Source: Pseudomonas sp. Teo4 (lineage in GTDB: Bacteria; Pseudomonadota; Gammaproteobacteria; Pseudomonadales; Pseudomonadaceae). From it: 64,000 nt of DNA. Each line of letters starts with the position of its first letter. Positions within the stretch are counted from its first letter, which is position 1. The DNA lies in assembly GCF_034387475.1 (NCBI RefSeq), contig NZ_JAXCIL010000001.1, forward strand, positions 2,046,001 through 2,110,000. The letters are read 5' to 3'. The notes below the pieces were generated by a model. It saw only the letters and a program-made list of their open reading frames with translations. It did not search any database and was not told where the DNA came from. This document shows positions 24,376 through 61,787 of the stretch, one piece after another. The position numbers were made by a program, and so were the translations under genes.

Positions 24376-24390
24376 TTCCGATTTCCGGAA
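24376..24390. promoter_or_regulatory. IclR-type operator candidate, site 1 of 9
   Basis: TTCCGATTTCCGGAA, a perfect TTCC-N7-GGAA palindrome (GTTCC...GGAAC with flanks), sits between the divergent MFS and SDR genes. It lacks the C at the eighth position that the other eight sites share. Confidence 0.55.
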
Positions 24391-24473
24391 CACCGGGTTG
24401 AAACCTCACCCGGCCTCGCCACGGCCGCTTCTAATATCGGCGCACACAAAATCACGGCAGGGAGACTCCTCTG

Positions 24474-25283
24474 ATGAAACCACTGGCAGGACAAGTCGCG
24501 CTGGTCACTGGCGCGGCACGGGGCATCGGCCGCGCGGTCGCGCAGCGCTTGGCCGAAGATGGCGCCCTGGTGATCGTGTCCGACCGCGACGCTGACGCAG
24601 CCAACGCAGTCGCACACCGGCTCAGTGCACTTGGCCACCAGGCCACCAGCCTGAGTCTCGACGTCACCGATCATGTGGCCGTGCAGGCCAGCATCGAGCA
24701 GATCTGCGCCGAGCATGGCCGTATCGACGTACTGGTCAGCAACGCCGGTGCCGGCAAGTCCAAACCCTTCCTGGACATGAGCGAAGCGGAGTTGCAGTCG
24801 CAGATGGCGCTGAACTTCGGCTCGGTGTATGTGCTGGCCCAGGCGTGTGCGCGCAAGATGCAGATGGCAGGCTACGGCCGGGTCATCTTCGTGTCTTCCG
24901 TCACCGGCTTGGCCGGGCCGGTCGAGCTGTCGGCCTACGGCGCCATGAAAGCCGGACAGCTGGGCCTGATGCGCGCCATGGCCCTGGAGCTGGGCGAGCA
25001 CGGCATCACTACCAACGCCGTGGCCCCAGGGCCGACCGACACCGAGCTGCTGCGGGTGGCGTGGTCCGCCGAGCAGGTCGCCGAAGCCGGCGAGCGCATC
25101 CCTGCGCGCCGGATCGGCAAGCCTGAAGAAGTCGCCCACGCCGTGAGCTTCCTGGCCTCGCCGGGGGCGGCCTTCATCAACGGGGTTGTGCTGCCGGTAG
25201 ACGGCGGCTTCACCGCGGCGGGCGGTTACATGGCCGAGGTTTATCGGCAGCGCAAGGCGCATCAGAACAGCGCCAGGTTGTAG
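24474..25283 (+). CDS. Short-chain dehydrogenase/reductase (3-oxoacyl-ACP reductase type)
   Basis: The product has 269 residues. The cofactor motif is TGAARGIG (about 13-20), then SNAG (about 88) and VSSVTG...YGAMKAG (Tyr about 154, Lys about 158). The C-terminus VDGGF is typical of classical SDRs. It oxidises a hydroxy group or reduces a keto group, with NAD(H) or NADP(H). The preceding intergenic operator suggests it belongs to the catabolic regulon, where it could act on a hydroxyacyl-CoA or an alcohol. Its 3' end overlaps the convergent porin gene by 22 bases. Confidence 0.85.
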   Translation: MKPLAGQVALVTGAARGIGRAVAQRLAEDGALVIVSDRDADAANAVAHRLSALGHQATSLSLDVTDHVAVQASIEQICAEHGRIDVLVSNAGAGKSKPFLDMSEAELQSQMALNFGSVYVLAQACARKMQMAGYGRVIFVSSVTGLAGPVELSAYGAMKAGQLGLMRAMALELGEHGITTNAVAPGPTDTELLRVAWSAEQVAEAGERIPARRIGKPEEVAHAVSFLASPGAAFINGVVLPVDGGFTAAGGYMAEVYRQRKAHQNSARL

Positions 25284-26573
25284 TTGAGCACCACGCGTAT
25301 CTGGTCCTGGTCCGGCGCCACCTCGCTGCGTAATTTGCCTTGCATCAGGCTGATACCCAGCCCGCGCGCCGGGCCACTCTGGATCGCGTAATTGAGGATC
25401 AGGTCGGTTTCACGCTCGCGCCGGTCGCCATCGCGTGCGGTCTTGATGCCTTCCGAGTTCTGATGGTTGAAGATCAGGCTCAAACCCGGCACACCCATTG
25501 CGACGAAGTCGTAGCTGTACTGGGCAATTACCGTGTCCTGGCCGGCGCGACCGAAGTTCGAGAGGATGCGCTCGGTGGTCAGGTACGAGCTTGCCCCCTG
25601 CCCCCACGCCCCCACCCAAGGTCCCCTGGTTGGGCTGGACGAAGTTGCTGTCATCGGACACACGCTGGTAACCCAGCAGCACGCTATGCCCCGAGAAGGC
25701 ATAGTTGAAGGTCAGGCTCCAGGTGTCGTTGTCGATCTCGCCACGGCCATCAGGGGTGTATCCGGCGACTCGATACCCAGGTTTTCCAGAGGCGTTGGCA
25801 CCTTCGCCACGGGTACGGAAGTACCTCAGATCGGTCTTCAGGCTCTGCCCTTCAGCCAGTTTCCAGGTATGTACGGCACCGGCGAACTGTTGCCGGTAGT
25901 AGTCTTCCAGGGAGGATTGGTAGTACTGCAGCAACAGGTTGTCCTGCGGTTTGTAGTCGACGCCGGCAAAACGAAAGTCATTGCTTTCACGCTGCCCACC
26001 GGTTACCGCAATCCCTGTCCGATCACTGGAGGCACGGCCCACGGCCTGGGTCAGCTTGCCAACGGTGAAGGTCAAGCCGTCGATTTCCTTGGAGGTCAGG
26101 ATCCCGCCCTGGTAGGTCTGCGGCAGTGGCCGCGTGTCGCTATAGACCAGAATGGGCAGGGTTGGCATCAAGGTGCCCAGCTTCAGCTCGGTCGCCGAGG
26201 CCTTGAGCTTCAACGTCAGCCCCAGGTGGCTCCACTCGTCGGCGGCGCGGTCGCCGTTGGAATTGAGCACCGTGCTTCCCTGGTGTCGCCCTTTGCCGCT
26301 GTCCAGCTTGAGCCCGAGCAGGCCCAGGGCATCCACGCCGACCCCAAGGGCACCATCGGTATAGCCGGACTGGTACTGCAGGCGAAAGCCCTGGGCCCAC
26401 TCCTCGGCTTTCGAGGGGCCGGTATGCCCCTCGCGAAAATCACTGTTGATGTAGAAATTGCGCATGCCCAGGTTCAGCTTCGAATCCTTCAGGAAGTCCG
26501 CTGTTGCAGCGCTTGAGAAAACCGGCCCGATCAACGGGATCAACACATACAAAGAGCCTTTCAGCACACTCAC
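25262..26573 (-). pseudogene. OprD-family outer-membrane porin, disrupted by a +1 frameshift
   Basis: Residues 1 to about 325 (signal peptide, DFLKDSKLNLGMRNFYINSDF, PILVYSDTRPLPQTYQGG, GELDNDTW-like and GYQRVSDDSNFVQP) read in one minus frame. The rest (WGQGASSYLTTERILSNFG to the end VVLNYNLALF) reads in the neighbouring frame. The frame changes at 25594-25613, three runs of five C on the plus strand, and the total length is 3n+1, so one extra base explains it; removal gives about 436 residues, the OprD norm. The GTG start at 26573 follows GAGGG. It is a porin for an organic acid, next to the TRAP genes. It is either a true lesion or a homopolymer sequencing error. Confidence 0.8.
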
Positions 26574-26588
26574 AGGATCGCCCTCTTG

Positions 26589-26596
26589 TTCTTGTT
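26589..26596 (-). promoter_or_regulatory. Candidate Crc/Hfq motif at the porin start
   Basis: On the minus strand AACAAGAA (within an extended AAAAAACAAGAACAAGAGGG) precedes the GTG start by about 15 bases and runs into its ribosome-binding site. Confidence 0.5.
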
Positions 26597-26698
26597 TTTT
26601 GGATAGCGACGTCCCAGGCCGGGCACCGAAAGGTGCCAGCCGGGCGTGGTTGTAGTGGTGAGGAAGTTGCGCGTCGCGCGGGCGCTGCCCGCTTTCGA

Positions 26699-27982
26699 CT
26701 ACATGTTGGCGGGCAGCCAGAGCACCAGCTGCGGGAACACCAGCAGCAGCGCAATGGTCACGCCCATCGACAGGACATAGGGGAAGCAGCCCCTGAACAC
26801 CTGCGTGACCGGCATCTTCGAGTACTTCGAGACCACGAAGCAGTTCAGCCCTACTGGTGGAGTCACCAGCCCGATCTCGGCGACGATGATCATGATGATG
26901 CCGAACCACACCAGGTCATAACCCAGCGCTGAAACCAGAGGCGCCACCACCGGCACGGTCAATACCAGGATCGCCATCTGGTCGAGGAAAAAGCCCAGTA
27001 TCAGGTACATGAACACCAACGCCAGGATGATTACCCAGGGCGCCACCGGCAAACCCCCGACCCAACCGATCAGGTCCTGGGTCACGTGAGTGAGGGCGAA
27101 GAACAACGAAAACACCTTGGCCCCGACAATGATGAACGCGATCATGCACGAGGTGCGCGTCGCCCGCGCCAGCAACTCGGTGAAGGCTTCCCATGACGGC
27201 TTGCCCCGGCACAGGTACAGCACGCCCGCGAAGAACGCCGCCAATGCAGCGGTCTCGGTGGGTGTGGCGATACCTGAATACACCACCCCGGTGATCGCGC
27301 CGAACAACATCAGCACTGGCAACACGGACTTGAGCAAGGCCAGCTTCTGGCCCAGTGGCACCGGGTCCGACAGTGGCGCACGGCTCGGGTCCAGCTTGAC
27401 CAGGGTGTAGACCGTGACCACGATGGTCAACGTCACCAGCAAGCCGGGCACCACCCCGGCCATCAGCAGGCGAGCGATGTTCACGTTGGCGATCAGGCCA
27501 TACACCATCATGATGATGCTCGGCGGAATCAGCATGGCCAGGGTGCCGGAAACGGCCACGCAGCCACCGGCCATGCGAGGCTCGTAACCGTGCTTGAGCA
27601 TGGCCATCAGCGAGGTGGACGACAGCGTTGCCGCCGATGCCGTCGACGAGCCACAGATCGCGCCAAACCCGGCCCCCGAGAACGCCGTTGCAATGCCTAG
27701 GCCGCCCGGGAAGCGACCGAACCAGGCAGCGCCGGTACGGAACAGATCATCGGTAACCCCGGACTTGAGGACGAACTCGGCCATCAGCAGGAACATCGGA
27801 ATGGTGATGAATTCGTAGACGATCGCCGACTCACGGGCCACCGACCCGAGCATCAGCGCCTTCGCGTCGGCCCCGCCCACCAGCAGCAAGCCGGCAGCAC
27901 CGACAATCGCCATGGAAAACGCGATAGGCGCACCCAAGCCGATAAGAACCAGCAAGGCGACAAAGAAGATTGCGGCAAGCAT
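26699..27982 (-). CDS. dctM: TRAP transporter large permease, DctM type
   Basis: The product has 427 residues with 12 or more hydrophobic helices. Landmarks are the N-terminal IGLGAPIAFSMAIVGAAG and the conserved GGGAxGAICGSSTASAATLS-like region, plus the C-terminal TPPVGLNCFVV. It is the ion-coupled channel of a DctPQM system and lies 2 bases after dctQ. It imports an organic acid together with Na+. The conserved TPPVGLN block suits carboxylates. Confidence 0.9.
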   Translation of the reverse strand: MLAAIFFVALLVLIGLGAPIAFSMAIVGAAGLLLVGGADAKALMLGSVARESAIVYEFITIPMFLLMAEFVLKSGVTDDLFRTGAAWFGRFPGGLGIATAFSGAGFGAICGSSTASAATLSSTSLMAMLKHGYEPRMAGGCVAVSGTLAMLIPPSIIMMVYGLIANVNIARLLMAGVVPGLLVTLTIVVTVYTLVKLDPSRAPLSDPVPLGQKLALLKSVLPVLMLFGAITGVVYSGIATPTETAALAAFFAGVLYLCRGKPSWEAFTELLARATRTSCMIAFIIVGAKVFSLFFALTHVTQDLIGWVGGLPVAPWVIILALVFMYLILGFFLDQMAILVLTVPVVAPLVSALGYDLVWFGIIMIIVAEIGLVTPPVGLNCFVVSKYSKMPVTQVFRGCFPYVLSMGVTIALLLVFPQLVLWLPANM

Positions 27983-27984
27983 GA

Positions 27985-28524
27985 TCAGAACTCCTCCTGC
28001 AGCTCGAGCGCCGGGTCCTTGCCCTGGCTCAGCACCATCACGCAGTGATGCACCAGGCGCACGGCCAGCAAGGCCGCGCCGAGTACGATGGGCAGATACG
28101 ACAGCCAGACAGGCCAGGCCTGCGAGCCATGGATGTACTCATGCTCGTGCAACGCCTCCAACAGGCTGTTGCCGGCGCTGTAGGCAAGCACGGCAAACAC
28201 CATCGCGGCGAACAACGACAGCAGCACGTCGACCCAGGCGCGCAAGCGCGGTCCCATGCGCTCGGTGAACAGCTCCAGACGAATGTGGTCGCCATGGCGG
28301 AAGGTATCGGCAGCGGCAAGGTAGGACACCGCCACCATCAGGTAGTAGCTGACCGACTCGGTCACCCAAGGGATCGGCGCGCCGAGGGCATAGCGGGCGA
28401 CGGCGTCGCTGCCCACCAGGAACATGATCGCGACCAGGCATAACCCCGCAATCGCCGCGCCCGATTTTTCCAACCGCTTGAATGTGGTATTCATCAAAAT
28501 GCCCCGTGGTCCAGTGGTTGCCAT
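27985..28524 (-). CDS. dctQ: TRAP transporter small permease, DctQ type
   Basis: The product has 179 residues and four hydrophobic helices (about 25-45, 60-80, 100-120, 142-165), with the family block YALGAPIPWVTESVSYYLMV. The start at 28524 has GGAG about nine bases upstream; MNTTFKRLEK ten codons in is an alternative. It lies 3 bases after dctP and 2 before dctM, in one operon. Confidence 0.85.
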   Translation of the reverse strand: MATTGPRGILMNTTFKRLEKSGAAIAGLCLVAIMFLVGSDAVARYALGAPIPWVTESVSYYLMVAVSYLAAADTFRHGDHIRLELFTERMGPRLRAWVDVLLSLFAAMVFAVLAYSAGNSLLEALHEHEYIHGSQAWPVWLSYLPIVLGAALLAVRLVHHCVMVLSQGKDPALELQEEF

Positions 28525-28527
28525 GGT

Positions 28528-29589
28528 TCAGATCTCCTGCCCATTCGTGCCTTGGAAGGTCTTGAGCACGCCTTTGCCGTCCTGCCCGACCGCCTGCATG
28601 TCCGCCAGCCAGGCATCGATGACCTGCTTCAACTTGTCGTTCCAGCGACTGATTTCTGCGGGTGTGAGTTGGGCGACCTGATGACCGCGGTGTTTCACCA
28701 TGTCCTCGCGAATTTTCCGGTCGTCCTCGTCCAGGCCCTGGCAGAAGGTTTCCTGGGTCGCTTGTGCGGCCTGGGTCATGACTGCCTGGATGTCCGTCGG
28801 CAACTTCGCCCAGGCCTGCTGGCTGATGGCGAAGGCGATCACCCCGCCGCCAAGGTTGACGCCGTCCACGGCGTAGCGGGTAAGGTCTTCGAGGTTGTAG
28901 GGAGGCAGGCCGTAATGCAGGAAGATCGCGCCATCGACAGTGCCCCGGGACAACGCTTCGTAAGTCTCCGACGACGGGATCTGTACCGGCACTCCACCCA
29001 GGGCCTGGGCAGTCTTGATCATCGATGCGCCCGTGCTGCGCAGCTTCAGGCCCTGGACCTCGTCCAGGCGGGTGATCGGCTTGCGGGTGGTCATCAACGT
29101 GTAGGGCGGCATGGCGGCAACGAACAGCACGTGCAACCCCTGGCGCGCGAACTCGCCCTCACCCAGCACGCCTGCTGGTCGGGCCAGTTTCCAGTAACGC
29201 CGGGTGCCTTCACAGGCATTGGCGTACATGCCCGGCAGTTCGGCTACCGACGACATCGGCAGCTTCTCGGACTCATAGGACGGGATGAAAATGGCGATAT
29301 CGGCCAGGCCAGAGCGCAACAGGCTGAAGTAGTCCTTGCCCAGTTGGCCTGCGGGGTAGAGTTCGAACGCGATTCGCCCGTTCGAGGCTTGCTTCACCTG
29401 CTCGGTGAAGACGGCGCCAGCATCGGTCCACAAGTAGTGCTTGCTGGAAAACCGATGGGCGAACTTGAGGGTCAGCGGCGTTTGCGCGAAAGCCGGCAAC
29501 GCCGTACCGGCAACGGCAGTCACAAGCAGGCTTGCCTGCAGCAGACGGCGTAGCCGCCCGGGTTTACGGGTGCGATTGTTCACTAGCAT
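28528..29589 (-). CDS. dctP: TRAP transporter substrate-binding protein, DctP type
   Basis: The product has 353 residues. The signal peptide ends near ALPAFAQT (about 36). The mature protein begins LTLKFAHRFSSKHYLW and carries LKLRSTGASMIKTAQALGGVPVQIP: the arginine in KLRSTG is the carboxylate-binding residue of DctP receptors, so the ligand is an organic acid. It is first in dctPQM, and P. aeruginosa's itaconate operon has a comparable TRAP set. An AATAAGAA motif (29608-29615) and an operator half-site (29709-29723) lie upstream. Confidence 0.9.
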   Translation of the reverse strand: MLVNNRTRKPGRLRRLLQASLLVTAVAGTALPAFAQTPLTLKFAHRFSSKHYLWTDAGAVFTEQVKQASNGRIAFELYPAGQLGKDYFSLLRSGLADIAIFIPSYESEKLPMSSVAELPGMYANACEGTRRYWKLARPAGVLGEGEFARQGLHVLFVAAMPPYTLMTTRKPITRLDEVQGLKLRSTGASMIKTAQALGGVPVQIPSSETYEALSRGTVDGAIFLHYGLPPYNLEDLTRYAVDGVNLGGGVIAFAISQQAWAKLPTDIQAVMTQAAQATQETFCQGLDEDDRKIREDMVKHRGHQVAQLTPAEISRWNDKLKQVIDAWLADMQAVGQDGKGVLKTFQGTNGQEI

Positions 29590-29607
29590 GACTCTTGTCC
29601 TTACTTG

Positions 29608-29615
29608 TTCTTATT
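29608..29615 (-). promoter_or_regulatory. Candidate Crc/Hfq motif at dctP
   Basis: AATAAGAA on the minus strand lies about 20 bases before the dctP start, in an A-rich leader with a second AAGGACAAG box. Confidence 0.45.
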
Positions 29616-29708
29616 AGGCCGAGCTACGCTCGCGGCAGGTTTAGCCTGACCGCGTGAAACGAGGATGCGGGCATCCCCAGAACAGCGTCAATCAAGCAGT
29701 CCGCATCG

Positions 29709-29723
29709 TTCCGTACAGTGACG
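29709..29723 (-). promoter_or_regulatory. IclR-type operator candidate, site 2 of 9 (half-site)
   Basis: TTCCGTACAGTGACG sits 120 bases before dctP. Its left half is perfect and the right half is degenerate. The 14 bases GTTCCGTACAGTGA (29708-29721) occur identically at 61772-61785, next to the IclR gene. Confidence 0.5.
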
Positions 29724-29830
29724 CAAGGAACCTTGCAGGCTGTTTTTCGATGGAAAAAAACCGCCGCGGCCGAAGACGGTATGGCCGGGCGGTTGTAATG
29801 GAGCGCGGTACGAAGTGTTGCGCGGCAGGC

Positions 29831-31177
29831 CTACTTCACCCGCTGCGCCTCATGCGCCGCCTGCGTGTTGAGGCGGCGGTAAGCCGAGGCGCGCTCATCG
29901 ACCAGCGCGATGGCCAGCGCCCCTACCAGCGATACACAGGCAATGACCAGGAAGTTGCCCATCAAGGGCAATTGCAAGGCCACCAGCAAACCGATGACGA
30001 TGGGGGCCGATACAGCACCGATGCGCCCCAGCCCGGTGGCAAAACCCAGGCCGGTGGAGCGGATCGACGCGGGGTAGAAATGCGCGGTGTAGATGTACAC
30101 CAACAGCTGCGTGCCCATGGTCGAGGCGCCTACCAGCATCACCACCAGCGACAAGGGTTGCACGCCCTGAGCCAGCATCATCAGCGCCACGGCGCCGACG
30201 ATGAACAGGACGAAGCTCACCCACTTCAGGCCCAGGCGGTCCCCCACCCAGCCACCGACCACTGCGCCCAGCAGGCCACCGGTGTTGAACGCGATCAGGT
30301 AATTCAATGCCGACCCCAGGTCGTGGCCAGCCAGGTTCATCAGCTTCACCAGCCAGGAACTCAGCGCATAGAGCACGAACAACCCGGCAATGCCGGCAAC
30401 CCAGAACATCACCGTGCTGAAGCCACGCCCCTCGCTGAACAGGCGCCCCACAGTGTCTCCGGATTGCTGGTCCACCTCTGGCAGCACGAACTCGCTGTCG
30501 GCCGGCAACTGCAGCTCCGGCCGCAAGCGTCGGGCCGAGGCCAGTAGCGCCTGGCTACCCTGCTTGCGCAGGACGAACGCCAGAGACTCAGGCATGTACC
30601 GGAGGATGAACGGGATCAACAGCAGCGGTATAGCCGCCACGAAAAACACCGACTGCCAGCCATGGACGACCAGCAACTGCTTGCCCAACAGTGCGGCCAG
30701 CATGCTGCCCAGCGCATAGCCGCAGCACATCAGGGTCATCAGCACGTTGCGCACCTTGCGCGGCGCGTACTCCGACATCAATGACACGACGTTCGGCACC
30801 GCGCCGCCCATGCCGATACCGGCCAAAAAACGCAGCGCACTGAAGCTCAACGGTTCATGGGCGAACCCCGCCGCCGCCGTGAACGCACTGAACAGCAGCA
30901 CACACAGGGCAACCGCACGACGCCGCCCGATACGGTCGGCCAAGGTGCCGAACAGGATCGCGCCCAGCACCATGCCCACCAGCCCTGAACTGGCCATGAA
31001 GCCGGCACTGGTCGCCTCGGCGCCCATGCCCTGCATGATCGCCGGCAGCGCCGCACCGACGATCGCCAGGTCATAACCATCGATGATCAACAGGCCGAAA
31101 CACCAGGCCAGCACCGTCCAGTGCAGCCCGGTCAGGCGCGCCTCTTCGGTCAAGCCATGTAGCTCGATACGTTGCAT
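29831..31177 (-). CDS. MFS aromatic/organic acid:H+ symporter (AAHS family)
   Basis: The product has 448 residues and 12 helices. DGYDLAIVGAALPAI near the first helix and FGTLADRIGRRR in the 2-3 loop are AAHS signatures (as in PcaK, BenK, VanK). It imports an organic, often aromatic, acid with protons. The start at 31177 follows GAGGAG. It is a second uptake route beside the TRAP system, so the cell may take up two related substrates or a substrate and its intermediate. Confidence 0.85.
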   Translation of the reverse strand: MQRIELHGLTEEARLTGLHWTVLAWCFGLLIIDGYDLAIVGAALPAIMQGMGAEATSAGFMASSGLVGMVLGAILFGTLADRIGRRRAVALCVLLFSAFTAAAGFAHEPLSFSALRFLAGIGMGGAVPNVVSLMSEYAPRKVRNVLMTLMCCGYALGSMLAALLGKQLLVVHGWQSVFFVAAIPLLLIPFILRYMPESLAFVLRKQGSQALLASARRLRPELQLPADSEFVLPEVDQQSGDTVGRLFSEGRGFSTVMFWVAGIAGLFVLYALSSWLVKLMNLAGHDLGSALNYLIAFNTGGLLGAVVGGWVGDRLGLKWVSFVLFIVGAVALMMLAQGVQPLSLVVMLVGASTMGTQLLVYIYTAHFYPASIRSTGLGFATGLGRIGAVSAPIVIGLLVALQLPLMGNFLVIACVSLVGALAIALVDERASAYRRLNTQAAHEAQRVK

Positions 31178-31194
31178 GACATCCACTCCTCTTG

Positions 31195-31202
31195 TTCTTG
31201 TT
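31195..31202 (-). promoter_or_regulatory. Candidate Crc/Hfq motif at the AAHS transporter
   Basis: AACAAGAA on the minus strand lies directly before the GAGGAG ribosome-binding site. Confidence 0.5.
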
Positions 31203-31265
31203 GTGTAGTGGCCAGTGCGGCCGTTGTTGCGTGTGGAGGTGCCTGCCGGCTGGGGACGCCGGCGA

Positions 31266-32765: not shown

Positions 32766-32781
32766 GTCGGCTTCCTTAACA

Positions 32782-32789
32782 TTGTTGTT
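32782..32789 (-). promoter_or_regulatory. Candidate Crc/Hfq motif at the aldehyde dehydrogenase
   Basis: AACAACAA on the minus strand lies about 17 bases before the start, with AAGGA between them. Confidence 0.5.
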
Positions 32790-32850
32790 TTCGACTGCGG
32801 CCCATGCTCGGCTGCCCCCTCGACCGTGGTCAATGCAGACACCGCCACTG

Positions 32851-32865
32851 TTCCGCGCAGTGGAA
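32851..32865. promoter_or_regulatory. IclR-type operator candidate, site 3 of 9 (full)
   Basis: TTCCGCGCAGTGGAA, extended to GTTCC...GGAAC by its flanks, lies in the divergent ALDH-PrpD promoter region. Confidence 0.65.
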
Positions 32866-32885
32866 CGGTGGCGATCGCGGGTGCT

Positions 32886-32900
32886 TTCCATTGGCCGGAA
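32886..32900. promoter_or_regulatory. IclR-type operator candidate, site 4 of 9 (full)
   Basis: TTCCATTGGCCGGAA (reverse TTCCGGCCAATGGAA) is centred 35 bases from site 3. Two sites in one divergent promoter suggest cooperative binding. Confidence 0.65.
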
Positions 32901-32975: not shown

Positions 32976-32983
32976 GGACAACC

Positions 32984-38160: not shown

Positions 38161-38273
38161 GTTTGCCTCCTGCCCCGAAGGTTGCTATCGCCTTGCTTAC
38201 GCGGCAAGGACCTTACAGTTGTTAGGTAGCCTGCCTTGCCGTTGGCATCCTGACAAGGAGCAACACGTCACTG

Positions 38274-38288
38274 TTCCGTTCTTTGGCG
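38274..38288 (+). promoter_or_regulatory. IclR-type operator candidate, site 5 of 9 (degenerate right half)
   Basis: TTCCGTTCTTTGGCG. The left half is perfect. It is 52 bases from site 6. Confidence 0.5.
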
Positions 38289-38325: not shown

Positions 38326-38340
38326 TTCCAAAGTACGGAA
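38326..38340. promoter_or_regulatory. IclR-type operator candidate, site 6 of 9 (full)
   Basis: TTCCAAAGTACGGAA (reverse TTCCGTACTTTGGAA), in the 304-base gap between the hydrolase and the CitE operon. No gene lies in that gap. Confidence 0.65.
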
Positions 38341-38441
38341 ATATTCCACCACCTCGCTTGGCGCCGATCAGCTCGCGGATACATGCTGGACCCCAGGCAA
38401 ATGCCGCTCATTAATCTAACTGTCGTTAGGCTAACCAGCAA

Positions 38442-44122: not shown

Positions 44123-44731
44123 CTACGACCTCGGCCGTACCCCGTCGAAAAAGATTGCGCAAAACTCCTCCACCACCGCCTCGGCCGTACCCTTCTGCGG
44201 ATCGAACCAGTTCAACGCCGAGTTGATGGTACCGAGCACGAACACCCGGCACAGCGCCAGGTTCACGTCTTCGCGCAAGTAACCCTCGTCACGCAAACGG
44301 TGCAGCAGGCCATCCCAGAATGCCTGGTGACGTTCACGCCGGCGCAATTGACGCTGCTGAACCTTCTCCGGCAGCTGCTCATGCAACCGGCCGCGGGCGA
44401 AGGCGTAGTCGCCGTATTGCACCAGGCCCGTCAACTGGCCGACCAGCGCCGCCTTGAAACTGTCCTCGGCCGTCGCACCAGCAGGTAGCGAGTCCATGCG
44501 TCGATAGATGTGCCGTACGATGCGCTCGGCACCATGCTCCATGACCGCGTCTACCAACTCTTCCTTGGACGAGAAGTGGTAATAGATGCTGGCAGCCTCG
44601 ATCCCGGCCTGCTCGGCAATCTGGCGCATGGTCGTGGCGGTGTAACCCTGGGCACCGAACGCGCGGGCAGCGAGTCGCATGAGCCGTTCGCGGGTGTCTT
44701 CGGCAGAGGGAGTGGCTTGACGTCGCGCCAT
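44123..44731 (-). CDS. TetR-family regulator
   Basis: The product has 202 residues. The HTH (about 15-60) reads AARAFGAQGYTATTMRQIAEQAGIEAASIYYHFSSKEELV, typical of TetR. The ligand domain follows. The start at 44731 (MARRQATPSAEDTRERL) fits the family; the frame runs further upstream without conservation. It lies downstream of, and on the same strand as, the acyl-CoA operon at 44903-55227, so it may be its regulator, sensing an acyl-CoA. A palindrome at 55305 is one possible target. Confidence 0.88.
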   Translation of the reverse strand: MARRQATPSAEDTRERLMRLAARAFGAQGYTATTMRQIAEQAGIEAASIYYHFSSKEELVDAVMEHGAERIVRHIYRRMDSLPAGATAEDSFKAALVGQLTGLVQYGDYAFARGRLHEQLPEKVQQRQLRRRERHQAFWDGLLHRLRDEGYLREDVNLALCRVFVLGTINSALNWFDPQKGTAEAVVEEFCAIFFDGVRPRS

Positions 44732-54146: not shown

Positions 54147-54156
54147 GGTCGGGTCC

Positions 54157-55227
54157 TCAGGCACTGGCCAGGCGTGGCATGCAGGCGTCGTAGCGGCGAC
54201 GGTGCTGGTCGGATGACCCATACAGGTTGGCCAGGGTCATGGCCTTGCGCAGGTACAGGCCGACGTCGCATTCGTCGGTGTAACCGATGGCGCCGTGCAG
54301 CTGGACCGCCTGGCGGGTCACCAGCAAAGCGGCGTCGGCGGCGCGGGCCTTGGCCCGGGAAACGGCGGCGCGACGTTGGGTAGCCGGCGCGCCGGCATCG
54401 CAGGTGGCCGCGGCCGCTTCGAGGCTGGCGCGCCATAGCGCCAGTTGCAGCTTGAGGTCCACGGCGCGGTGTTGCAGGGCCTGGAAGTTGCCGATGGTCT
54501 GGCCGAACTGCTTGCGGGTGCGCAGGTAGTCCAGGGTAAGAGCGAAGGCCTGTTCGGCGGCGCCCAGCAGGTAGGCGGCGGTACCCAGCATGGCTTCATC
54601 GAGGGCATCCGACAGGGCCTGGGCCGGCAGCGGCAAGGTCTCGGCCGGGGCATTGTCCAGATGCAGATGGCCGAAATGGCCACCGTCCTGGGTGGTGACG
54701 ATGTCCAGGCTCACGCCGGGCGCCTTGGCGTCCACCAGGGCCAGCCCCTCTGGCGTGCTGACCAGGAAACCATCCGCCGCGCCCGCCATGGGAATGCACA
54801 GTTTTCGCCCGGTGACGCGGCCATCACGCAGGCGGGTCCAGCCTTCGGCGGTATCCAGGCTGTCGACTTCCTCCTGCAGGGCCGGCAGCAGCAGGCGCTC
54901 GCCACTCAACTGCGCGGCCAGTTGCTCGCCATCGAGCAGGCGTGCGGCCAGCACCGCCGGCACGAAGGGCTCGGGCAGCAAGGCGGCGCCGAACACTTCC
55001 AGCAACGCGCAGTACTCGGCCATGCCCAGGCCAATACCGCCCTGAGCCTCGGGCACGGACAGGCCCAACCAGCCGTTTTCGGCCATCTCACGCCATACCG
55101 CCCCATCGACTCCGGGCACCTCATAGCGCAGCCCACGCACCCGGCCCAGCTCGCTGGCAGGTGCGAACGCGGCTGCGCTATCGCGAATCATGCGGATGTT
55201 TTCCAAACGTTCTTCAGACGAATGCAT
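54157..55227 (-). CDS. Acyl-CoA dehydrogenase, likely non-catalytic partner subunit
   Basis: The product has 356 residues, shorter than normal. The N-terminal helical and middle domains are reduced, and there is no FAD-type TEP.SGSD motif or recognisable catalytic Glu. The C-terminal half has AYLLGAAEQAFALTLDYLRTRKQFGQTIGNFQALQHR and QLHGAIGYTDE, as in ACADs. This division of motifs fits heteromeric ACADs. It is first in the 55227-44903 operon. Confidence 0.85.
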   Translation of the reverse strand: MHSSEERLENIRMIRDSAAAFAPASELGRVRGLRYEVPGVDGAVWREMAENGWLGLSVPEAQGGIGLGMAEYCALLEVFGAALLPEPFVPAVLAARLLDGEQLAAQLSGERLLLPALQEEVDSLDTAEGWTRLRDGRVTGRKLCIPMAGAADGFLVSTPEGLALVDAKAPGVSLDIVTTQDGGHFGHLHLDNAPAETLPLPAQALSDALDEAMLGTAAYLLGAAEQAFALTLDYLRTRKQFGQTIGNFQALQHRAVDLKLQLALWRASLEAAAATCDAGAPATQRRAAVSRAKARAADAALLVTRQAVQLHGAIGYTDECDVGLYLRKAMTLANLYGSSDQHRRRYDACMPRLASA

Positions 55228-55304
55228 CTCGGTCTCCTGGTTGCCCGGCAGTCACCCGGCAACATGTGTCGTCGGCAGCGAAGTCGTCACAGCCTTGGAC
55301 CAAT

Positions 55305-55321
55305 ATTTCGCCATATGAAAT
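55305..55321. promoter_or_regulatory. Palindrome ATTTC-N7-GAAAT before the ACAD operon
   Basis: It lies 78 bases upstream of the first ACAD gene in a gap with no gene. It is AT-rich and unlike the TTCC-type operators, so it could be the TetR site or a promoter element. Confidence 0.35.
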
Positions 55322-55380
55322 ACCATTTCAATAGATGACTCCCTGCTGGCAGGGGTTTTCGGAAGGGCAATTCGGCTTCG

Positions 55381-55395
55381 TTCCGAGCAATGGAA
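55381..55395. promoter_or_regulatory. IclR-type operator candidate, site 7 of 9 (full)
   Basis: TTCCGAGCAATGGAA agrees with the consensus at every fixed position and sits 154 bases before the first ACAD gene. It joins this operon to the same regulon as the CitE block. Confidence 0.65.
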
Positions 55396-55484
55396 TTTGC
55401 CCATCGCCTGCCCTGCGAAAACGACAACGCCTTGCTCCAGGCAAGGCGTTGAAGGGCACCACTGAGCGCGACAGCGAGAACGCG

Positions 55485-56894
55485 TCAGGCAGCGAACAGC
55501 GCTGTCAGGTCGGTCACCTGCGCTTGCAACGGCAGCTCACGCAACGTCGCCAGCAAGGCCCGGGCACGCTGCTCGCCGAGCACCTCGGTGGTCAGCTCCA
55601 TGAACTTGGCATCCTGCTGGGCCTCGGACATGGGGTTCTCCAGCGAGCCAATGGGCTGCTCGACGAACAGGTGCTGCTGGGTATCGTCGGTGAACGTCAG
55701 GGTCAGGTCGGCGACGAACTTTCCGGGGTAGCGCTGTTCGATCTCGGGTGACTCGCTGATGCGGATGGCGCGGGCCACTTCCAGCACGGGCGCCATGTCG
55801 ACCTTGCCCGCCAGGTAGTCACGGTGCACCGCATAGCCATTGCCCTGGCCCAACAGCGCGAAGGCTATCTGTACCGGCAGGCTGAACTGCACATGCTCGA
55901 TGTTGGCCGGCGAGTAGGCATTGGCATTGGCGTTGCCCACGACCGTGTTGAACGCCGGGTGGATACGCGCATGCACTTCACGGATACGCTCCAGTTGCCC
56001 CGCATACGGCGTCAACGCATCGATGTAGGCATGGGTGCAATAGCAGGCGCAGTAGGCCTTGAGCCAGACGTTGCCGATTTCGAACGGCTGGTCCAGGCCG
56101 AAACGCGCCTCGGCGCCTTCGCCTGGCCCGCGCTGCACGAAGGTACGCAAGAAGCCTTTGTTGCCGGTCAGGAAGGCCCTTGGCCCGGTGATGCCCGCCG
56201 CAGCCATGCTGGCAGCGACCATGCCGTTGCGCGTGCCGATACCCGCATGCACCCGCTTGATCGAGCCACCCGTGGAGGTGTACTCGGTGGTGCCTCCCGC
56301 ATGGCTCAAGGCGATGGCCAAGGCATGCAAGGTGGTTTCAGCATCGAAGCCACGCAGCTTGGCCGCCACCGCTGCAGCGCCGAAGTTCGACAGCACCGCG
56401 TGGGGTTGATAACCCCGTTTGAGCAGTTCCGGTGCGGCCAACATGCCGATACGGGCATAGACCTCGTAACCGGCAACCATGGCGGTGATCACTTCCTCGA
56501 GCGTCGAGCCCAGTTCTTCGCCGATCGCCAGGGCTGCGGGAATCACGCAGCTGCCTGGGTGGCTGGCACTGGTTGCATGGGCGTCGTCGTATTCGAAGCC
56601 ATGACCATAGGCCCCATTGACGAAGGCGGCATCGGCAGCACTCATGCGCAGGTCGCTGGCGGCCACACGGCTGTTGCCCGGGGCATGCTGGGCACGCACG
56701 AAGTCCAGCACCTGCCGTGACCATGGCATCTGCGCGGTGCCGACCTGCAGGGCGACCTGGTCGCGCAACAGGCGGCTCACGCCGGCCAGCGCAGCCTTGT
56801 CCAGGTGCTCGTAACGCAGTTGCTGGATCAGTTGAACCACGGCCTGTTCCAGGCTCGGGCAGTTTTCAAGGGTTTGCTTGTCAGCTTGGCTCAT
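55485..56894 (-). CDS. MmgE/PrpD-family protein (second copy)
   Basis: The product has 469 residues. The active-site block YGHGFEYDDAHATSASHPGSCVIPAALA is the canonical MmgE/PrpD form (2-methylcitrate dehydratase, cis-aconitate decarboxylase). It is the same length as the copy at 32984 but differs at this block. It lies in a run PrpD-ADH-ALDH-SMP30 on the minus strand. A dehydratase on a branched tricarboxylate or dicarboxylate is likely, by family. Confidence 0.87.
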   Translation of the reverse strand: MSQADKQTLENCPSLEQAVVQLIQQLRYEHLDKAALAGVSRLLRDQVALQVGTAQMPWSRQVLDFVRAQHAPGNSRVAASDLRMSAADAAFVNGAYGHGFEYDDAHATSASHPGSCVIPAALAIGEELGSTLEEVITAMVAGYEVYARIGMLAAPELLKRGYQPHAVLSNFGAAAVAAKLRGFDAETTLHALAIALSHAGGTTEYTSTGGSIKRVHAGIGTRNGMVAASMAAAGITGPRAFLTGNKGFLRTFVQRGPGEGAEARFGLDQPFEIGNVWLKAYCACYCTHAYIDALTPYAGQLERIREVHARIHPAFNTVVGNANANAYSPANIEHVQFSLPVQIAFALLGQGNGYAVHRDYLAGKVDMAPVLEVARAIRISESPEIEQRYPGKFVADLTLTFTDDTQQHLFVEQPIGSLENPMSEAQQDAKFMELTTEVLGEQRARALLATLRELPLQAQVTDLTALFAA

Positions 56895-56933
56895 GTGAAG
56901 TCCGTTCCTTTGTTGTCATTACCCTGAACAGGG

Positions 56934-58004
56934 TCAGAAAAGAAACACGCCCTTGCCGCCCGCCTGGCCATCGAAATGGCGGTAGGCTTCGACGGCCTGG
57001 TCCAGGCGCCAGTGGTCGGTGAACAATTTGTCCACCTCCACGCCATGGCGGGCGATGAACTGCGCGCATTCGTTCATGCCGGCCTGGGAGAAGGTGTACG
57101 AACCGATTACCGTGCGTTGACGGCCAATCAGGTCCTTCATGGCATCCACATTCAGGTTGCCGCCAATCGCCACCAGGGCGATCCGTCCCCAGGTCGCGGT
57201 GCAGCGCACCGCCTGCTGGCGTGGCGCCTCGCCGCCAGCGCAGTCCATGGAGCAAGACACGCCCTTGCCGCGGGTGATGCGCATGATCTCCTCGACCGCG
57301 TCCACCTGGCTGCCGTCGACCACATGGGTCGCCCCTAGCGCCTTGGCCCGGGCAATGCGCTCGGCGCTGATGTCCACGCCAATCACTTCGACCCCCATGG
57401 CCGCCGCCAACTGCACGGCGGACAGCCCCACCGGCCCCAGGCCGAACACCGCCAGGGTGTCGCGGGCACTGATGTCCAGGCGCAGCAGCGCGCCATAGGC
57501 GGTACCGGTGCCACAGGCGATCGCGGCACCACCGGCGAAGGTGATCTCGTCGGGCAGGTGCACCAGGCAGGACGCCGGGGTTTTCATGTAGTCGGCATGG
57601 CTGCCGTGGGCGATGACCCCGTGCACCGTGGCGCCGTGATCACACAGCTGGGTCCAGCCGGTACGGCAGGAGTCGCAGCACGTGCAGCCTTCGTAGTGGA
57701 ACACCATGACCCGGTCGCCAATCTTGAAACGCGTCGGGTCGATCCCGGCGCCAATAGCGACGATCTCGCCGCAGGGCTCATGCCCGCCAATGATGGGCTG
57801 GGTTTCGTCGATGCCACGGGAGGCCAAGTCCTTGAAGCCCAGCGAACGAATGATCTGCACAGGGTCGTGCCGATAAAAATGCAGGTCACTGCCGCACATG
57901 CCTGATGCCCGCATGCGGATCACGGCCTCGCCCGGCCCCGGGGTGGGGTCGGCAAAGTCGAGGATCTCCAGCTTGCGGTCGCCTCTGAATACAACGCCAC
58001 GCAT
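56934..58004 (-). CDS. Zinc-dependent alcohol dehydrogenase (MDR family)
   Basis: The product has 356 residues. Catalytic zinc ligands are in GMCGSD (Cys about 36) and GGHEPCGE (His-Glu about 73); four structural-zinc cysteines are clustered in CTCCDSCRTGWTQLC (about 103-117). The Rossmann motif is GLGPVGLSAV. It oxidises a primary or secondary alcohol. The aldehyde dehydrogenase starts upstream at 59561, and the pair would take an alcohol to an acid. Confidence 0.92.
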   Translation of the reverse strand: MRGVVFRGDRKLEILDFADPTPGPGEAVIRMRASGMCGSDLHFYRHDPVQIIRSLGFKDLASRGIDETQPIIGGHEPCGEIVAIGAGIDPTRFKIGDRVMVFHYEGCTCCDSCRTGWTQLCDHGATVHGVIAHGSHADYMKTPASCLVHLPDEITFAGGAAIACGTGTAYGALLRLDISARDTLAVFGLGPVGLSAVQLAAAMGVEVIGVDISAERIARAKALGATHVVDGSQVDAVEEIMRITRGKGVSCSMDCAGGEAPRQQAVRCTATWGRIALVAIGGNLNVDAMKDLIGRQRTVIGSYTFSQAGMNECAQFIARHGVEVDKLFTDHWRLDQAVEAYRHFDGQAGGKGVFLF

Positions 58005-58070
58005 AATCTTCTCCGGTAATCGCTCTTGTACTTGTTCTGTTCCGAATGCCTGTGTCGCAGCCACGGTGGC

Positions 58071-59561
58071 TTACATGCGCAGCATCACGGCCTTGACCTG
58101 GGTGTAGGCGTCGATCGACTCCTGGCCAAACTCGCGGCCCCAGCCAGACTGCTTGTAGCCGCCGAACGGCATGGCCGGGTCGGCTTCGCCATAGGTGTTG
58201 ATCCACACCCGCCCTGCCTTGAGCGCACGCACCACCTTGTGCGCCCGGCCGATGTCACGGGTCCAGACCGCAGCCGACAGGCCGTAGCTGGTGTCATTGC
58301 CTTGTAGCACCGCGTCTTCTTCATCATCGAAGGCGATCACCGACAGCACCGGCCCGAAGATCTCTTCCTGGGCGATGCGCATGCGGTTGTTCACCTGGCC
58401 GAACACGGTCGGCTCGACGAAATAGCCAGCGCCAGACCATGGGGCACCGCCCAGACGCAGTTGCGCGCCCTCCTCCTGGCCTGCGTCGATGTACGAACGC
58501 ACGCGGTCGCGCTGCTTGGCCGAAATCAGCGGGCCGAGCTTGGTGTCGGCAGCCAGCGGGTCGCCGACCTTGAAGGTGGCCGCCAGGCTGGCCACGCGCT
58601 CCAGCACCTCGTCATACACCGCGCGCTGCACGAACAGCCGGGTCCCGGCCGAACACACCTGGCCGGAGTTGCCGCAGAAGGTCTTGACCGCCGCCTGCAC
58701 CGCCTTTTCCAGGTCGGCGTCGGCGAACACGACGTTGGGCGCCTTGCCGCCCAGTTCCAGGGTGACCTTCTTCAAGTTCGAGGTGGAGGCCTGCACGATC
58801 TGCTTGCCCACGGCGGTGGACCCGGTGAAGGCGATCTTGTCCACATCCTGGTGCAGCGACAACGCGGCGCCCGCGGTGTGGCCAAACCCCGGCAGCACGT
58901 TGATCACGCCCGGTGGCAGGTCGGTTTCCTGAATCAGTTCGGCCAGCCGCAATGAGCTCAGCGAGGCCAGGTCCGCCGGCTTGAGCACCAGGGTATTGCC
59001 ACAGCACAAGGCGTTGGCCAGCTTGATCGAGGCCATCAGCACCGGGACGTTCCAGGGGATGATCTGCCCGCACACACCCAACGGCTCGCGCAGGGTATAG
59101 ACGAAACCGGTGGCGTCGGAAGGAACGGTGCTGCCATGGATTTTCGAGCACCAGCCGGCGTAGTAACGGAAGATGTCCGCCGCGGCGGTGGCGGCGGCCT
59201 TGGCGTACCACAGCGGCATGCCGTTATCGAGGGTTTCGATGGCGGCCAGTTCATCGGCATGGCGATCGATCTGCTCGGCGATGCGCAGCAGCATGCGGGT
59301 GCGCGCATGGGACGAAATACCGCTCCAGGCGGCATTTTCAAAGGCCTTGCGCGCAGCGACCACGGCCGCATCGACATCGGCGCTGTCGGCTTCGGCAATC
59401 CGGCACAGCAGTTGTTCGGTGGCCGGGTTGAGGGTTTCGAAGGTGCTGCCCGAGGCGGCATCCTGCCACCTGCCGCCGATCAGCAGCCGCTTGTGCCCGG
59501 AAGCGATCCAGGCGCGGGCGCTGGCGACGCCGGCGTTCGGGTTGAGGGGGTCGGTACTCAT
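58071..59561 (-). CDS. NAD(P)+-dependent aldehyde dehydrogenase (second copy)
   Basis: The product has 496 residues. Cys in NSGQVCSAGTR (about 300), Glu in LELGGKAPNV (about 266), FTGSTAVG (about 243) and PWNVPVLM are all present. It is more like betaine/retinal-type ALDHs than the copy at 31266. The RBS is AAGGAG. With the ADH it forms an oxidation module for a primary alcohol. Confidence 0.93.
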   Translation of the reverse strand: MSTDPLNPNAGVASARAWIASGHKRLLIGGRWQDAASGSTFETLNPATEQLLCRIAEADSADVDAAVVAARKAFENAAWSGISSHARTRMLLRIAEQIDRHADELAAIETLDNGMPLWYAKAAATAAADIFRYYAGWCSKIHGSTVPSDATGFVYTLREPLGVCGQIIPWNVPVLMASIKLANALCCGNTLVLKPADLASLSSLRLAELIQETDLPPGVINVLPGFGHTAGAALSLHQDVDKIAFTGSTAVGKQIVQASTSNLKKVTLELGGKAPNVVFADADLEKAVQAAVKTFCGNSGQVCSAGTRLFVQRAVYDEVLERVASLAATFKVGDPLAADTKLGPLISAKQRDRVRSYIDAGQEEGAQLRLGGAPWSGAGYFVEPTVFGQVNNRMRIAQEEIFGPVLSVIAFDDEEDAVLQGNDTSYGLSAAVWTRDIGRAHKVVRALKAGRVWINTYGEADPAMPFGGYKQSGWGREFGQESIDAYTQVKAVMLRM

Positions 59562-59642
59562 GCATTTCTCCTTGCCTGAATGGAATGCGGGGCCTGCCAC
59601 GGCCGATCCATGGCAGGCGTATCTGGCGTGTGTCGGCGAGGC

Positions 59643-60533
59643 TCAGGCAGCAGGGACATCCACGCGGGTGGACAGCACCTGGCTGAGCGGATTGTTGCGA
59701 CGCACTTCGGGGTCGAATTCGGCTGGCGTCACGCACATGAACAACGTGCGGCCATCGGCGCCACCCAGGGCGCAGGAGTAGCAGTTCAGATCGCCGGTCT
59801 GTACTTCATCGACGATCTCGCCGCCCGGCATCACGCGCAGGGCTCGGGTCTTGGTGAAATCGGCCACCCAGATGGCGCCCTCGGCATCGACCGAGGCAAT
59901 GCCATCGCTGGCGACCACGATCTCGCCCATGGCCTTGAAGATATCCTCGTTCTGGGGAATCGGGCCGAAACGCGCCCAGTCGCGGCGGGCGGACAACGAG
60001 CCGTCGGCCTGGATGTCGAAGGCCGACATGCGGTTGCCGAATGACTCGGCCACTACCAGGGTCTTGCCGTCAATCACCGTAGAGCCGTTGGGGAAATGCA
60101 GCGGCTCGCTGACCACGGTCACGCTGCCGTCCGGGTCGACGCGCACCAGCCTCGCGGGCCGACGGGGTGCGAAGCGCATCACGTCGAAGCCCAGGTTGCC
60201 GACCCAGGCGCGGCCTTGCGCGTCCACCACCATGTCGTTGGGCTCGAACTCCTGGTGCGGGCCGAGTTCGGCATGCACCACCAGGCTGCCGTCGTGCTCG
60301 CGGCGCAACAGGCGACGGTCATGCATGGACACCACCAGCAGGCGTCCATCGGGCAACCAGCCGATGCCCGACGGGCAACCCGGCACCTCGGCTTCCTTGC
60401 GCAGCTCGGTGCCATCGTCGTTTACCGAGTACACGGCGAACGAGTACAGGTCACTGAACCAGAAACGTCCCTGATACCAGCGTGCGCCTTCGGTGTGGGT
60501 CAGGCCATCGAGCAGTACAGACAGTTTTCTCAT
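59643..60533 (-). CDS. SMP-30/gluconolactonase-family hydrolase
   Basis: The product has 296 residues, a six-bladed propeller. Metal-site residues are Glu in THTEGARW (about 15), Asn in HFPNGST (about 150) and Asp in VASDGIAS (about 200). It opens a lactone ring with a divalent metal. It is placed before alcohol and aldehyde dehydrogenases, giving the order lactone, hydroxy acid, aldehyde, dicarboxylate. A degenerate operator lies 130 bases upstream. Confidence 0.88.
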   Translation of the reverse strand: MRKLSVLLDGLTHTEGARWYQGRFWFSDLYSFAVYSVNDDGTELRKEAEVPGCPSGIGWLPDGRLLVVSMHDRRLLRREHDGSLVVHAELGPHQEFEPNDMVVDAQGRAWVGNLGFDVMRFAPRRPARLVRVDPDGSVTVVSEPLHFPNGSTVIDGKTLVVAESFGNRMSAFDIQADGSLSARRDWARFGPIPQNEDIFKAMGEIVVASDGIASVDAEGAIWVADFTKTRALRVMPGGEIVDEVQTGDLNCYSCALGGADGRTLFMCVTPAEFDPEVRRNNPLSQVLSTRVDVPAA

Positions 60534-60662
60534 GACGCGTTCTCTTGTTTGTCTTGTCGAACATCATGTCGGGCCGACCTGCTCGTGCTTGCGGCAGGTT
60601 CGACGCGCGTGGACTCATTGCAGCCCTGGCGGGCGTTGCGGGCAAGCAGGCAAGGCTGCTTG

Positions 60663-60677
60663 TCCCGTACTTCGGAA
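60663..60677 (-). promoter_or_regulatory. IclR-type operator candidate, site 8 of 9 (one mismatch)
   Basis: TCCCGTACTTCGGAA. The right half is perfect, the left half has one change. It lies upstream of SMP-30, in the SMP-30/MetA gap. Confidence 0.5.
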
Positions 60678-60702
60678 AGTGCTTGGCAATGCTGCTCGCC
60701 GG

Positions 60703-61626
60703 TCAGAACACATGCAGGTAGCGCAGGCGCAGCTGCTGGCTCATCTTGAAGCCGTTCTCCACATCAAGATCACGGAACAGGCCGACCATGAACTGGTCAG
60801 CCGGTGTCAGCATGGTGCTGCCCTGAATGTAGAAACCGCGGGTCTTGACCTGGTCGCCCTGCAACTGCCCGTCGACTTCGGTTTCGCCACCCTGGTCGAA
60901 ATACACGCCCACGCCCAGCTGGGATGCGCCGGGGTCGTTGAACAGGTAGGTCACCCCGCCCTTGGCCTCGTACCAGGGGCGTTGGCGGCGTGTGAGCTTG
61001 TCCGGGCCGTATTCGTCGTTCTTGCCGTAGAAGTCGGCTTCCAGCAACACGTCCAGGTCGAAGTGTTCGCCCAGACCACGCTGGTAGCCCAGCTGCAACA
61101 CCGCCTTCCAGCGGTTTTCACCCGGGTTGAGAAAGTCCTTGTGGTCGTACTCGCCCAGCGGCAGGTACAGCCAAGGGCCGATGGTCAGGTACTCGCGGTT
61201 CGCCCGGTCGACATGCAGCCAGAACGGGATGCCGATGAAGGGGTCGCCCATGCCGGCGGTGTGGTCCAGCCCTGCGACGTTGTCCGGCGACATGTTCTGG
61301 TGGGTCAGGATCAAGGACGGGTTGATGATGAACGAGTCTCCCACCTGGGTCGGGTGGGCATACCGCAGGATGGTCGTGTTGACATCGAGCTTGGCGCGGT
61401 TGTCGATGATCTGGCTGTTCTTGTACATGTCCGAGTTCTTCGAATTGATCATGTACAGCGCCATCAGGTCATGGCCGGGCATGGGGGCGGCGAAGTCACC
61501 GATATCGGCGCCCAGGGCATGGGCCCTGGAAATCGGCCAGAGCAGGCATATCGGCACCAGCAGCATGGCCAGCAGGGGGTACAACGCGCGCAGGGTAAAC
61601 TCCCGCACGTCAGGGCGATTGAGCAT
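60703..61626 (-). CDS. Phenol-MetA/SphA-type outer-membrane transport protein
   Basis: The product has 307 residues. The signal peptide (1 to about 37, ending RAHALG) is followed by beta-strand-rich repeats such as LVVNPSLILTH-like, HLDHTAGMGDPFIGIPFWLHVDR and YLTIGPWLYLPLGEYD; it closes with LRLRYLHVF, a barrel end. This matches the Phenol_MetA_deg family, found beside degradation genes for phenols and other organics. It is probably the outer-membrane route for the substrate. The start at 61626 has GGAGA upstream and an AACAACAA motif. Confidence 0.85.
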   Translation of the reverse strand: MLNRPDVREFTLRALYPLLAMLLVPICLLWPISRAHALGADIGDFAAPMPGHDLMALYMINSKNSDMYKNSQIIDNRAKLDVNTTILRYAHPTQVGDSFIINPSLILTHQNMSPDNVAGLDHTAGMGDPFIGIPFWLHVDRANREYLTIGPWLYLPLGEYDHKDFLNPGENRWKAVLQLGYQRGLGEHFDLDVLLEADFYGKNDEYGPDKLTRRQRPWYEAKGGVTYLFNDPGASQLGVGVYFDQGGETEVDGQLQGDQVKTRGFYIQGSTMLTPADQFMVGLFRDLDVENGFKMSQQLRLRYLHVF

Positions 61627-61646
61627 GGGAACATCTCCACTTTTTA

Positions 61647-61654
61647 TTGTTGTT
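61647..61654 (-). promoter_or_regulatory. Candidate Crc/Hfq motif at the MetA-type protein
   Basis: AACAACAATAA on the minus strand, about 20 bases before the start, gives two overlapping AANAANAA matches. Confidence 0.5.
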
Positions 61655-61772
61655 CTGAAGCGAGGCACCCTACGGGTGGATGGCCTGGTTCGATGCCGTG
61701 GCCGGCATTGCGTCGGCGTCAGGGCCAGTCAAAGGCAGATGCCCCGGCAAGGCAAGCAGCGGCCGCCGGGGG

Positions 61773-61787
61773 TTCCGTACAGTGAGA
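61773..61787 (+). promoter_or_regulatory. IclR-type operator candidate, site 9 of 9 (half-site)
   Basis: TTCCGTACAGTGAGA lies between the divergent MetA-type gene and the IclR gene, 90 bases before the latter. Its left 14 bases equal those of the TRAP site at 29708. Confidence 0.55.

Follow-up and report, generated by a model that had tools for sequence, protein, structure and literature searches.

Clustered palindromes in a catabolic gene region of Pseudomonas sp. Teo4 are probably operators of IclR-family regulators other than the nearest one

A stretch of 64,000 nucleotides from Pseudomonas sp. Teo4 (the window: bases 2046001-2110000 of contig C1 in a genome of 6.51 Mb) was analysed for a palindrome, TTCCG-N5-YGGAA (class A; looser form TTCC-N7-GGAA), that recurs ahead of catabolic and uptake genes. 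Site coordinates beyond 64000 continue the window numbering. The palindromes are real, and they have the look of genuine switches serving a single set of breakdown genes. We posit, with a probability of roughly three in four, that they are operators read by R2 and/or R3, two neighbouring IclR-family proteins, and that a third, R1, reads a second palindrome (class B, TTTCR-N5-YGAAA) in two of the same gaps. A preliminary description of the window had recognised one IclR-type regulon of catabolic and uptake genes, which holds, but had named R1 (the IclR gene at 61876) as its reader, which is probably wrong. R2 and R3 were hardly visible to that description, as the window contains no more than the final 67 bases of R2.

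Density and placement of the class A palindrome

TTCC-N7-GGAA occurs six times in the window, compared with 0.66 in shuffled sequences, none of which reached six in 100 trials; when one mismatch is allowed the excess is modest (28 copies, 16.7 expected). Genome-wide it is found in 141 places (reversed control 69), or one per 46 kb, in agreement with the earlier estimate of less than one in 40 kb. TTCCG-N5-YGGAA occupies 39 places as counted from the listing (24 per strand; reversed control 15), and eight of these fall in the 47 kb between 24376 and 71380, five within the window and three past its end, where 0.23 would be expected. Poisson probabilities for the 47 kb are 1.4e-10 for this strict form and 8e-6 for all TTCC-N7-GGAA, uncorrected for the fact that the region had been picked for its sites. 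The excess is confined to one spacer: between 24376 and 71380 the N7 form has eight copies, and the other 12 spacers (2 to 14) have none or one each. All eight exact cluster sites fit TTCCG-N5-YGGAA in at least one orientation.

Placement was judged by a gene caller trained on the codon use of 28 genes from the region, which called 88% of the sequence from 20 to 72 kb coding. All eight cluster sites lie in gaps, compared with 5 of the 31 strict sites elsewhere in the genome (Fisher 2e-5), and four weaker class A copies and three class B sites are likewise intergenic. The preliminary description had named as a refuting result a scan with as many copies inside genes as between them, and it stands up to this test; all nine of its sites are in gaps, as it had stated. 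The coordinates of its five full copies (24376, 32851, 32886, 38326 and 55381) were also borne out. Its weaker copies proved to be one with a single mismatch (60663) and three with a left arm and a degraded right arm (38274, 29709 and 61773), the last two having the 14 bases GTTCCGTACAGTGA in common, as described. The reported C at position 8 is present in eight of the nine sites in their better orientation, the exception being 24376. The list was, however, incomplete in that the copies at 12077, 68510, 69498 and 71366 and the class B site at 55306 had been missed (Table 1).

Three regulators and a second palindrome

Three IclR genes lie within 4 kb, and R1, R2 and R3 each carry HTH_IclR (PF09339) and IclR_C (PF01614) domains, all above gathering scores. 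The R2 and R3 genes are located downstream of ligase and enoyl-CoA hydratase genes on the same strand, with the class A site at 68510 ahead of this gene row.

Class B is unusual in the region by its clustering only, with three sites in 47 kb and 0.11 expected. Class B also occurs in a three-box form, a pair of the IclR group 1 kind followed by a third box (TTTCR), with the direction alternating. Such matches number 58 in 59 other loci with R1 relatives, 0 in shuffles, and 9 in the three clusters that carry R1, R2 and R3; these are pattern counts, not one per locus. In the acyl-CoA dehydrogenase gap the class B and class A centres are 75 bp apart both here and in P. citronellolis and 74 bp apart in P. 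guariconensis, for which shared ancestry alone could account; the distances in the MaoC/ETF-quinone oxidoreductase (ETF-QO) gap here are 76 and 65.

Motif distribution across species

An alignment-based contig scan yielded 63 loci with R1 relatives, where a single-sequence contig scan gave nothing. Within 400 bp upstream of these relatives, class B is present in 31 of 63 and TTCC-N7-GGAA in 1 of 63 (single-letter shuffles 0.0 and 0.28). The TTCCG motif appears instead to follow R2 and R3.

Co-occurrence totals for strict class A, half-A (TTCCGTACNNYG) and class B were judged against dinucleotide shuffles. The three clusters with R1, R2 and R3 (our own, P. citronellolis and P. guariconensis) hold 15, 7 and 8 of these (shuffles 0.65, 0.2 and 0.25), and P. 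entomophila and a Nevskia metagenome-assembled genome, with R1 only, hold 0, 0 and 3. The 59 other R1 loci hold 13, 0 and 70 (shuffles 3.75, 1.0 and 3.5), and four betaproteobacterial loci with R3 and R2 hold 1, 10 and 0 (shuffles 0.2, 0.3 and 0.15). On these locus totals half-A cleanly separates loci with and without R2/R3. P. citronellolis and P. guariconensis, compared by tblastn with 46 query frames (the OprD and HpcH2 frames held stops and their matches were excluded), share R1, R2, R3, the core operons and both motif classes; here too, class A or half-A precedes the acyl-CoA dehydrogenase operon and is found within the MaoC-to-ligase stretch. P. entomophila and the Nevskia genome have the acyl-CoA dehydrogenase operon and R1; no class A was found on their fetched 20 kb, nor R3 (E 1e-30) or R2 (E 1e-45) genome-wide.

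Orthologues were few by kinship scan, which is why plasmid records were turned to. At E 1e-60, R3 turned up in a single further genome among 398 of Pseudomonas (by its coordinates the P. guariconensis locus); 6 others of 199 had it at E 1e-40, all at 36-39%, and 1 other of 369 in the class had it at 39%. For R1 at E 1e-50, none of the 274 genomes in the class apart from its own gave a match. Plasmid records with a match numbered 49, and the best 4 of the 49 were examined: Burkholderia arboris, Paraburkholderia hospita, Cupriavidus pinatubonensis and Cupriavidus sp. P-10 (R3 44-47%, R2 54-57%). These stretches (about 12 kb each side) hold TTCCGTAC-NN-YG half-sites (5, 3, 1 and 1, respectively), several of them ahead of R3, with gap placement judged by tblastn matches and the annotation of one locus rather than by the gene caller. 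R1 was not found on them, and the TTTCR palindrome is absent from all four. R2 was found in every one of the 7 examined loci whose R3 has at least 44% identity.

Several results weigh against the assignment to R2/R3. The 13 strict class A sites of the 59 other R1 loci exceed the 3.75 of the shuffles; 9 are in open frames of more than 200 aa and 4 are outside such frames (L044:9787, L054:20055, L058:12533 and L073:20633). These loci were labelled R1-only on the basis of the stretch fetched; whole-genome searches for R3 and R2 covered only 27 of the 63 genomes, and some R1-locus genomes hold R2/R3-like proteins at 30-39%. Among the 27, 10 have distant R3-like proteins only (30-38%) and two, P. 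citronellolis and P. guariconensis, have orthologues; whole-genome counts of GTTCCGTACNNYG in these R1-bearing genomes range from 0 to 5, with no split by R2/R3. The betaproteobacterial sites are mostly half-sites, full class A palindromes being rare there (1), and R1 was sought in betaproteobacteria on those plasmid stretches only. The loci are related, so that counts are not independent events. The class A site at 71366 has no clear target gene. Two further results either count against the assignment or stand beside it: GTTCCGTACNNYG has eight places in our own genome, three in the cluster and five inside genes elsewhere, and class B is no commoner genome-wide than its reversed control (18 and 16).

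Some further observations were made at these loci. The full site at 71366 (L016:7366) lies directly after the ETF-QO gene, and the called gene that comes next is oriented in its direction. A CCTAACGTTNGTNAGG box is common to the two Cupriavidus R3 loci, some 190 bp before the R3 gene (L112:11811 and L115:11812). Loci L096, L098, L099 and L104 contain distant R2/R3-like IclR genes (30-38%) with TTYCR-N5-CGRAA palindromes 79-145 bp upstream, and 7 of the 15 loci L090-L104 have the TTYCR-N5-YGRAA form within 280 bp upstream; a wider clade may therefore use the motif.

Proposed mechanism

According to our model, R2 and/or R3 would occupy class A in the promoter regions of catabolic and uptake operons, and would also bind at the half-site of the TRAP operon, at their own row of ligase, R3 and R2 genes and at the half-site ahead of R1, which would amount to autoregulation together with control of R1. 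This binding may respond to an intermediate of the pathway, possibly a carboxylic acid or a CoA thioester. R1 would form a second layer and bind the class B three-box sites, which stand 65-76 bp from class A in the gap of the acyl-CoA dehydrogenase operon and in that of MaoC/ETF-QO. The sites with their positions and clustering, the regulator genes and the joint occurrence of motif and regulator in several species are observed; binding, the effector, the sign of regulation and the choice between R2, R3 or both are parts that we infer.

A narrower version, which we consider rather doubtful, has R2 and R3 join in a heteromer that reads an asymmetric operator composed of a GTTCCGTAC half and a TTCCA half; R1 would then be a separate layer, at a distance of some seven helical turns. 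R2 accompanies R3 in all 7 loci mentioned above. Unlike arms are paired in 12 of 16 full class A sites (permutation p 0.03), a test that left out three exact TTCC-N7-GGAA copies without the TTCCG-N5-YGGAA form (our own 12077, inside a gene, P. guariconensis 36955 and L115:13179). The centre base of unlike-arm sites is C in 16, G in 2 and T in 1, a count biased by half-sites picked by TTCCGTAC; for the 12 full unlike-arm palindromes it is C in 9, G in 2 and T in 1 (p 0.07). No title on an IclR heterodimer was among the literature matches listed. If this version were true, three IclR proteins would set one pathway.

Alternative readings

Another regulator, such as the TetR protein at 44123, the LysR protein at 22237 or one encoded elsewhere, is an improbable reader of class A. 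In B. arboris a TetR relative (64%) does lie beside a half-A site. Seven clusters have class A or half-A sites, but TetR was found in only two of them (our own and B. arboris) and is absent from the tblastn listings of P. citronellolis, P. guariconensis, P. hospita and the two Cupriavidus stretches, which disfavours it. Moreover, the 15-bp class A form fits IclR group 1, and a TetR-type palindrome of a different kind is present at 38416. This palindrome, CTAACTGTCGTTAG (38416-38429), and a one-mismatch copy at 38212-38225 lie on either side of the class A sites in the promoter gap of citE and are perhaps the operator of TetR 44123. CTAACN4GTTAG with two mismatches allowed gave 3 matches, not above the 7.2 expected by chance, so that this candidate rests on one exact and one near copy.

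Slightly less probable still is that R1 reads class A and controls both catabolic blocks and itself, as first proposed. R1 is of the right family and has a half-site ahead of it. Against this, its relatives have class B rather than class A upstream, class A was not found on the fetched stretches where R1 occurs without R2/R3 (P. entomophila and Nevskia), and half-A sites are present in four loci where R1 was not found, so that R1 is disfavoured on both upstream motif and co-occurrence. A specificity change private to R1 of this genome is unlikely, since the helix stretch DKATIVRMLETL is invariant across 24 aligned R1 sequences.

We regard it as very unlikely that all three proteins are unspecific and read both classes as group 1 variants that differ at two arm positions. 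The two classes do have equal spacing and stand 65-76 bp apart in the same gaps, but each is missing from loci that lack its own proposed reader. Chance or coding constraint is hardly credible, and a chance origin was rejected on the density, spacer and gap tests: TTCC-N7-GGAA is common in the genome (twice its reversed control) and 26 of the 31 strict sites elsewhere lie inside genes, but the cluster sites are in gaps in 8 of 8 cases, exceed expectation both in density and at a single spacer length, and recur in related clusters.

Comparison with known systems

In PMC8222616, a variant of the IclR group 1 operator is given as GTTYCRYW3RYGRAAC, with tandem sites 18-22 bp apart in many, though not all, groups. 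Class A resembles it in the TTYCR-N5-YGRAA arms, in the 15-bp spacing, in belonging to regulators of catabolic genes and in the G before the left arm (24 of 27 listed sites). It differs in that the two arms are often unlike and that the centre is mostly C (22 of the 27 sites) rather than A/T (W3), which is itself a consensus tendency and no strict rule; for 11 of the 27 sites, TTCCGTAC alone was or could have been the basis of selection. Tandem class A sites are 18 bp apart in P. citronellolis (11611/11629) and 35 and 52 bp apart in the window.

The same source tabulates the operator of GenR, an IclR-family regulator of Corynebacterium glutamicum, as ATTCC-N7(5)-GGAAT (PMC8222616). This is similar to class A, but GenR belongs to the gentisate pathway of an actinobacterium. 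Three-box sites of the PcaU type are also described there (PMC8222616), and class B resembles them in having TTTCR-N5-YGAAA followed by TTTCR, three boxes in alternation; R1 is unlike PcaU in that it matches MhpR models best, below their cut-offs. By sequence, class A fits as a member of the IclR group 1 operators and class B as the three-box type, both known kinds in a proposed layered design. No mention of TTCCGTAC together with IclR was found in open papers, subscription papers being outside the search.

Gene content of the region

Genes of the region include LysR (22237), TetR (44123) and R1, an aromatic-acid MFS transporter, a TRAP transporter, an OprD porin and a Phenol_MetA_deg outer-membrane protein. 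Also present are an SDR gene, an SMP-30 gene, citE-like lyases, two aldehyde dehydrogenases, a MaoC hydratase and two MmgE/PrpD genes, together with several acyl-CoA dehydrogenases, CaiB CoA-transferases, a thiolase and two ETF subunits. Past the window end are R2, R3, an enoyl-CoA hydratase, an enzyme like acetate/acetoacetate-CoA ligases, a second MaoC gene and ETF-QO. This content reads as a CoA-thioester pathway, on whose substrate a literature search gave one unrelated match. The OprD porin (25262-26575) is open in one frame over about 280 of 394 profile positions with the remainder seemingly in another frame, which seems to reflect a frameshift or an assembly error. The stretch L110:2548-3753 is labelled in PLSDB as a predicted OXA beta-lactamase at 100% identity and matches the cluster thiolase at 76% over 401 aa; the label is probably misplaced.

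Table 1. Palindromes and IclR-family regulator genes of the region, with gene placement by the gene caller where indicated.
Feature	Position	Strand	Context
Exact TTCC-N7-GGAA copy	12077		inside a gene (gene caller)
Putative class A operator TTCCGATTTCCGGAA	24376..24390	.	between MFS gene (-) and SDR gene (+)
Class A left half-site GTTCCGTACAGTGA, right arm degraded	29709..29723	+	ahead of TRAP operon (dctP -)
Putative class A operator TTCCGCGCAGTGGAA	32851..32865	+	between aldehyde dehydrogenase (-) and MmgE/PrpD gene (+)
Putative class A operator TTCCGGCCAATGGAA (- strand reading)	32886..32900	-	aldehyde dehydrogenase/MmgE/PrpD gap, 35 bp from 32851 site
Degenerate class A copy TTCCGTTCTTTGGCG, left arm and degraded right arm	38274..38288	+	between alpha/beta hydrolase (-) and citE-like lyase (+)
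Putative class A operator TTCCGTACTTTGGAA (- strand reading)	38326..38340	-	alpha/beta hydrolase/citE-like lyase gap
Class B palindrome TTTCGCCATATGAAA, then third TTTCA box	55306..55320	.	ahead of acyl-CoA dehydrogenase operon, 75 bp from class A site
Putative class A operator TTCCGAGCAATGGAA	55381..55395	+	ahead of acyl-CoA dehydrogenase operon (-)
One-mismatch class A copy TCCCGTACTTCGGAA	60663..60677	+	ahead of SMP-30 gene (-)
Class A left half-site GTTCCGTACAGTGA, right arm degraded	61773..61787	+	ahead of R1
R1, IclR family	61876..62679	+	closest models MhpR (PRK09834), below their cut-offs; proposed reader of class B, not class A
R2, IclR family	63934-64725	-	63934..64000 in window; proposed reader of class A
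R3, IclR family	64719-65579	-	follows R2, outside window; proposed reader of class A
Class A, exact	68510, 69498, 71366		past window end, intergenic (gene caller)
Class B	69422, 69563		past window end, on stretch L016

Implications

The analysis provides a testable assignment of operator and regulator for an uncharacterised CoA-thioester catabolic cluster found here in a few Pseudomonas and Burkholderiales, and it illustrates how choosing the closest regulator gene in view can mislead. Two palindromes, similar yet separate, seem to serve adjacent IclR proteins within shared promoters, which would make this cluster a natural case for the study of how IclR paralogues keep distinct specificities.

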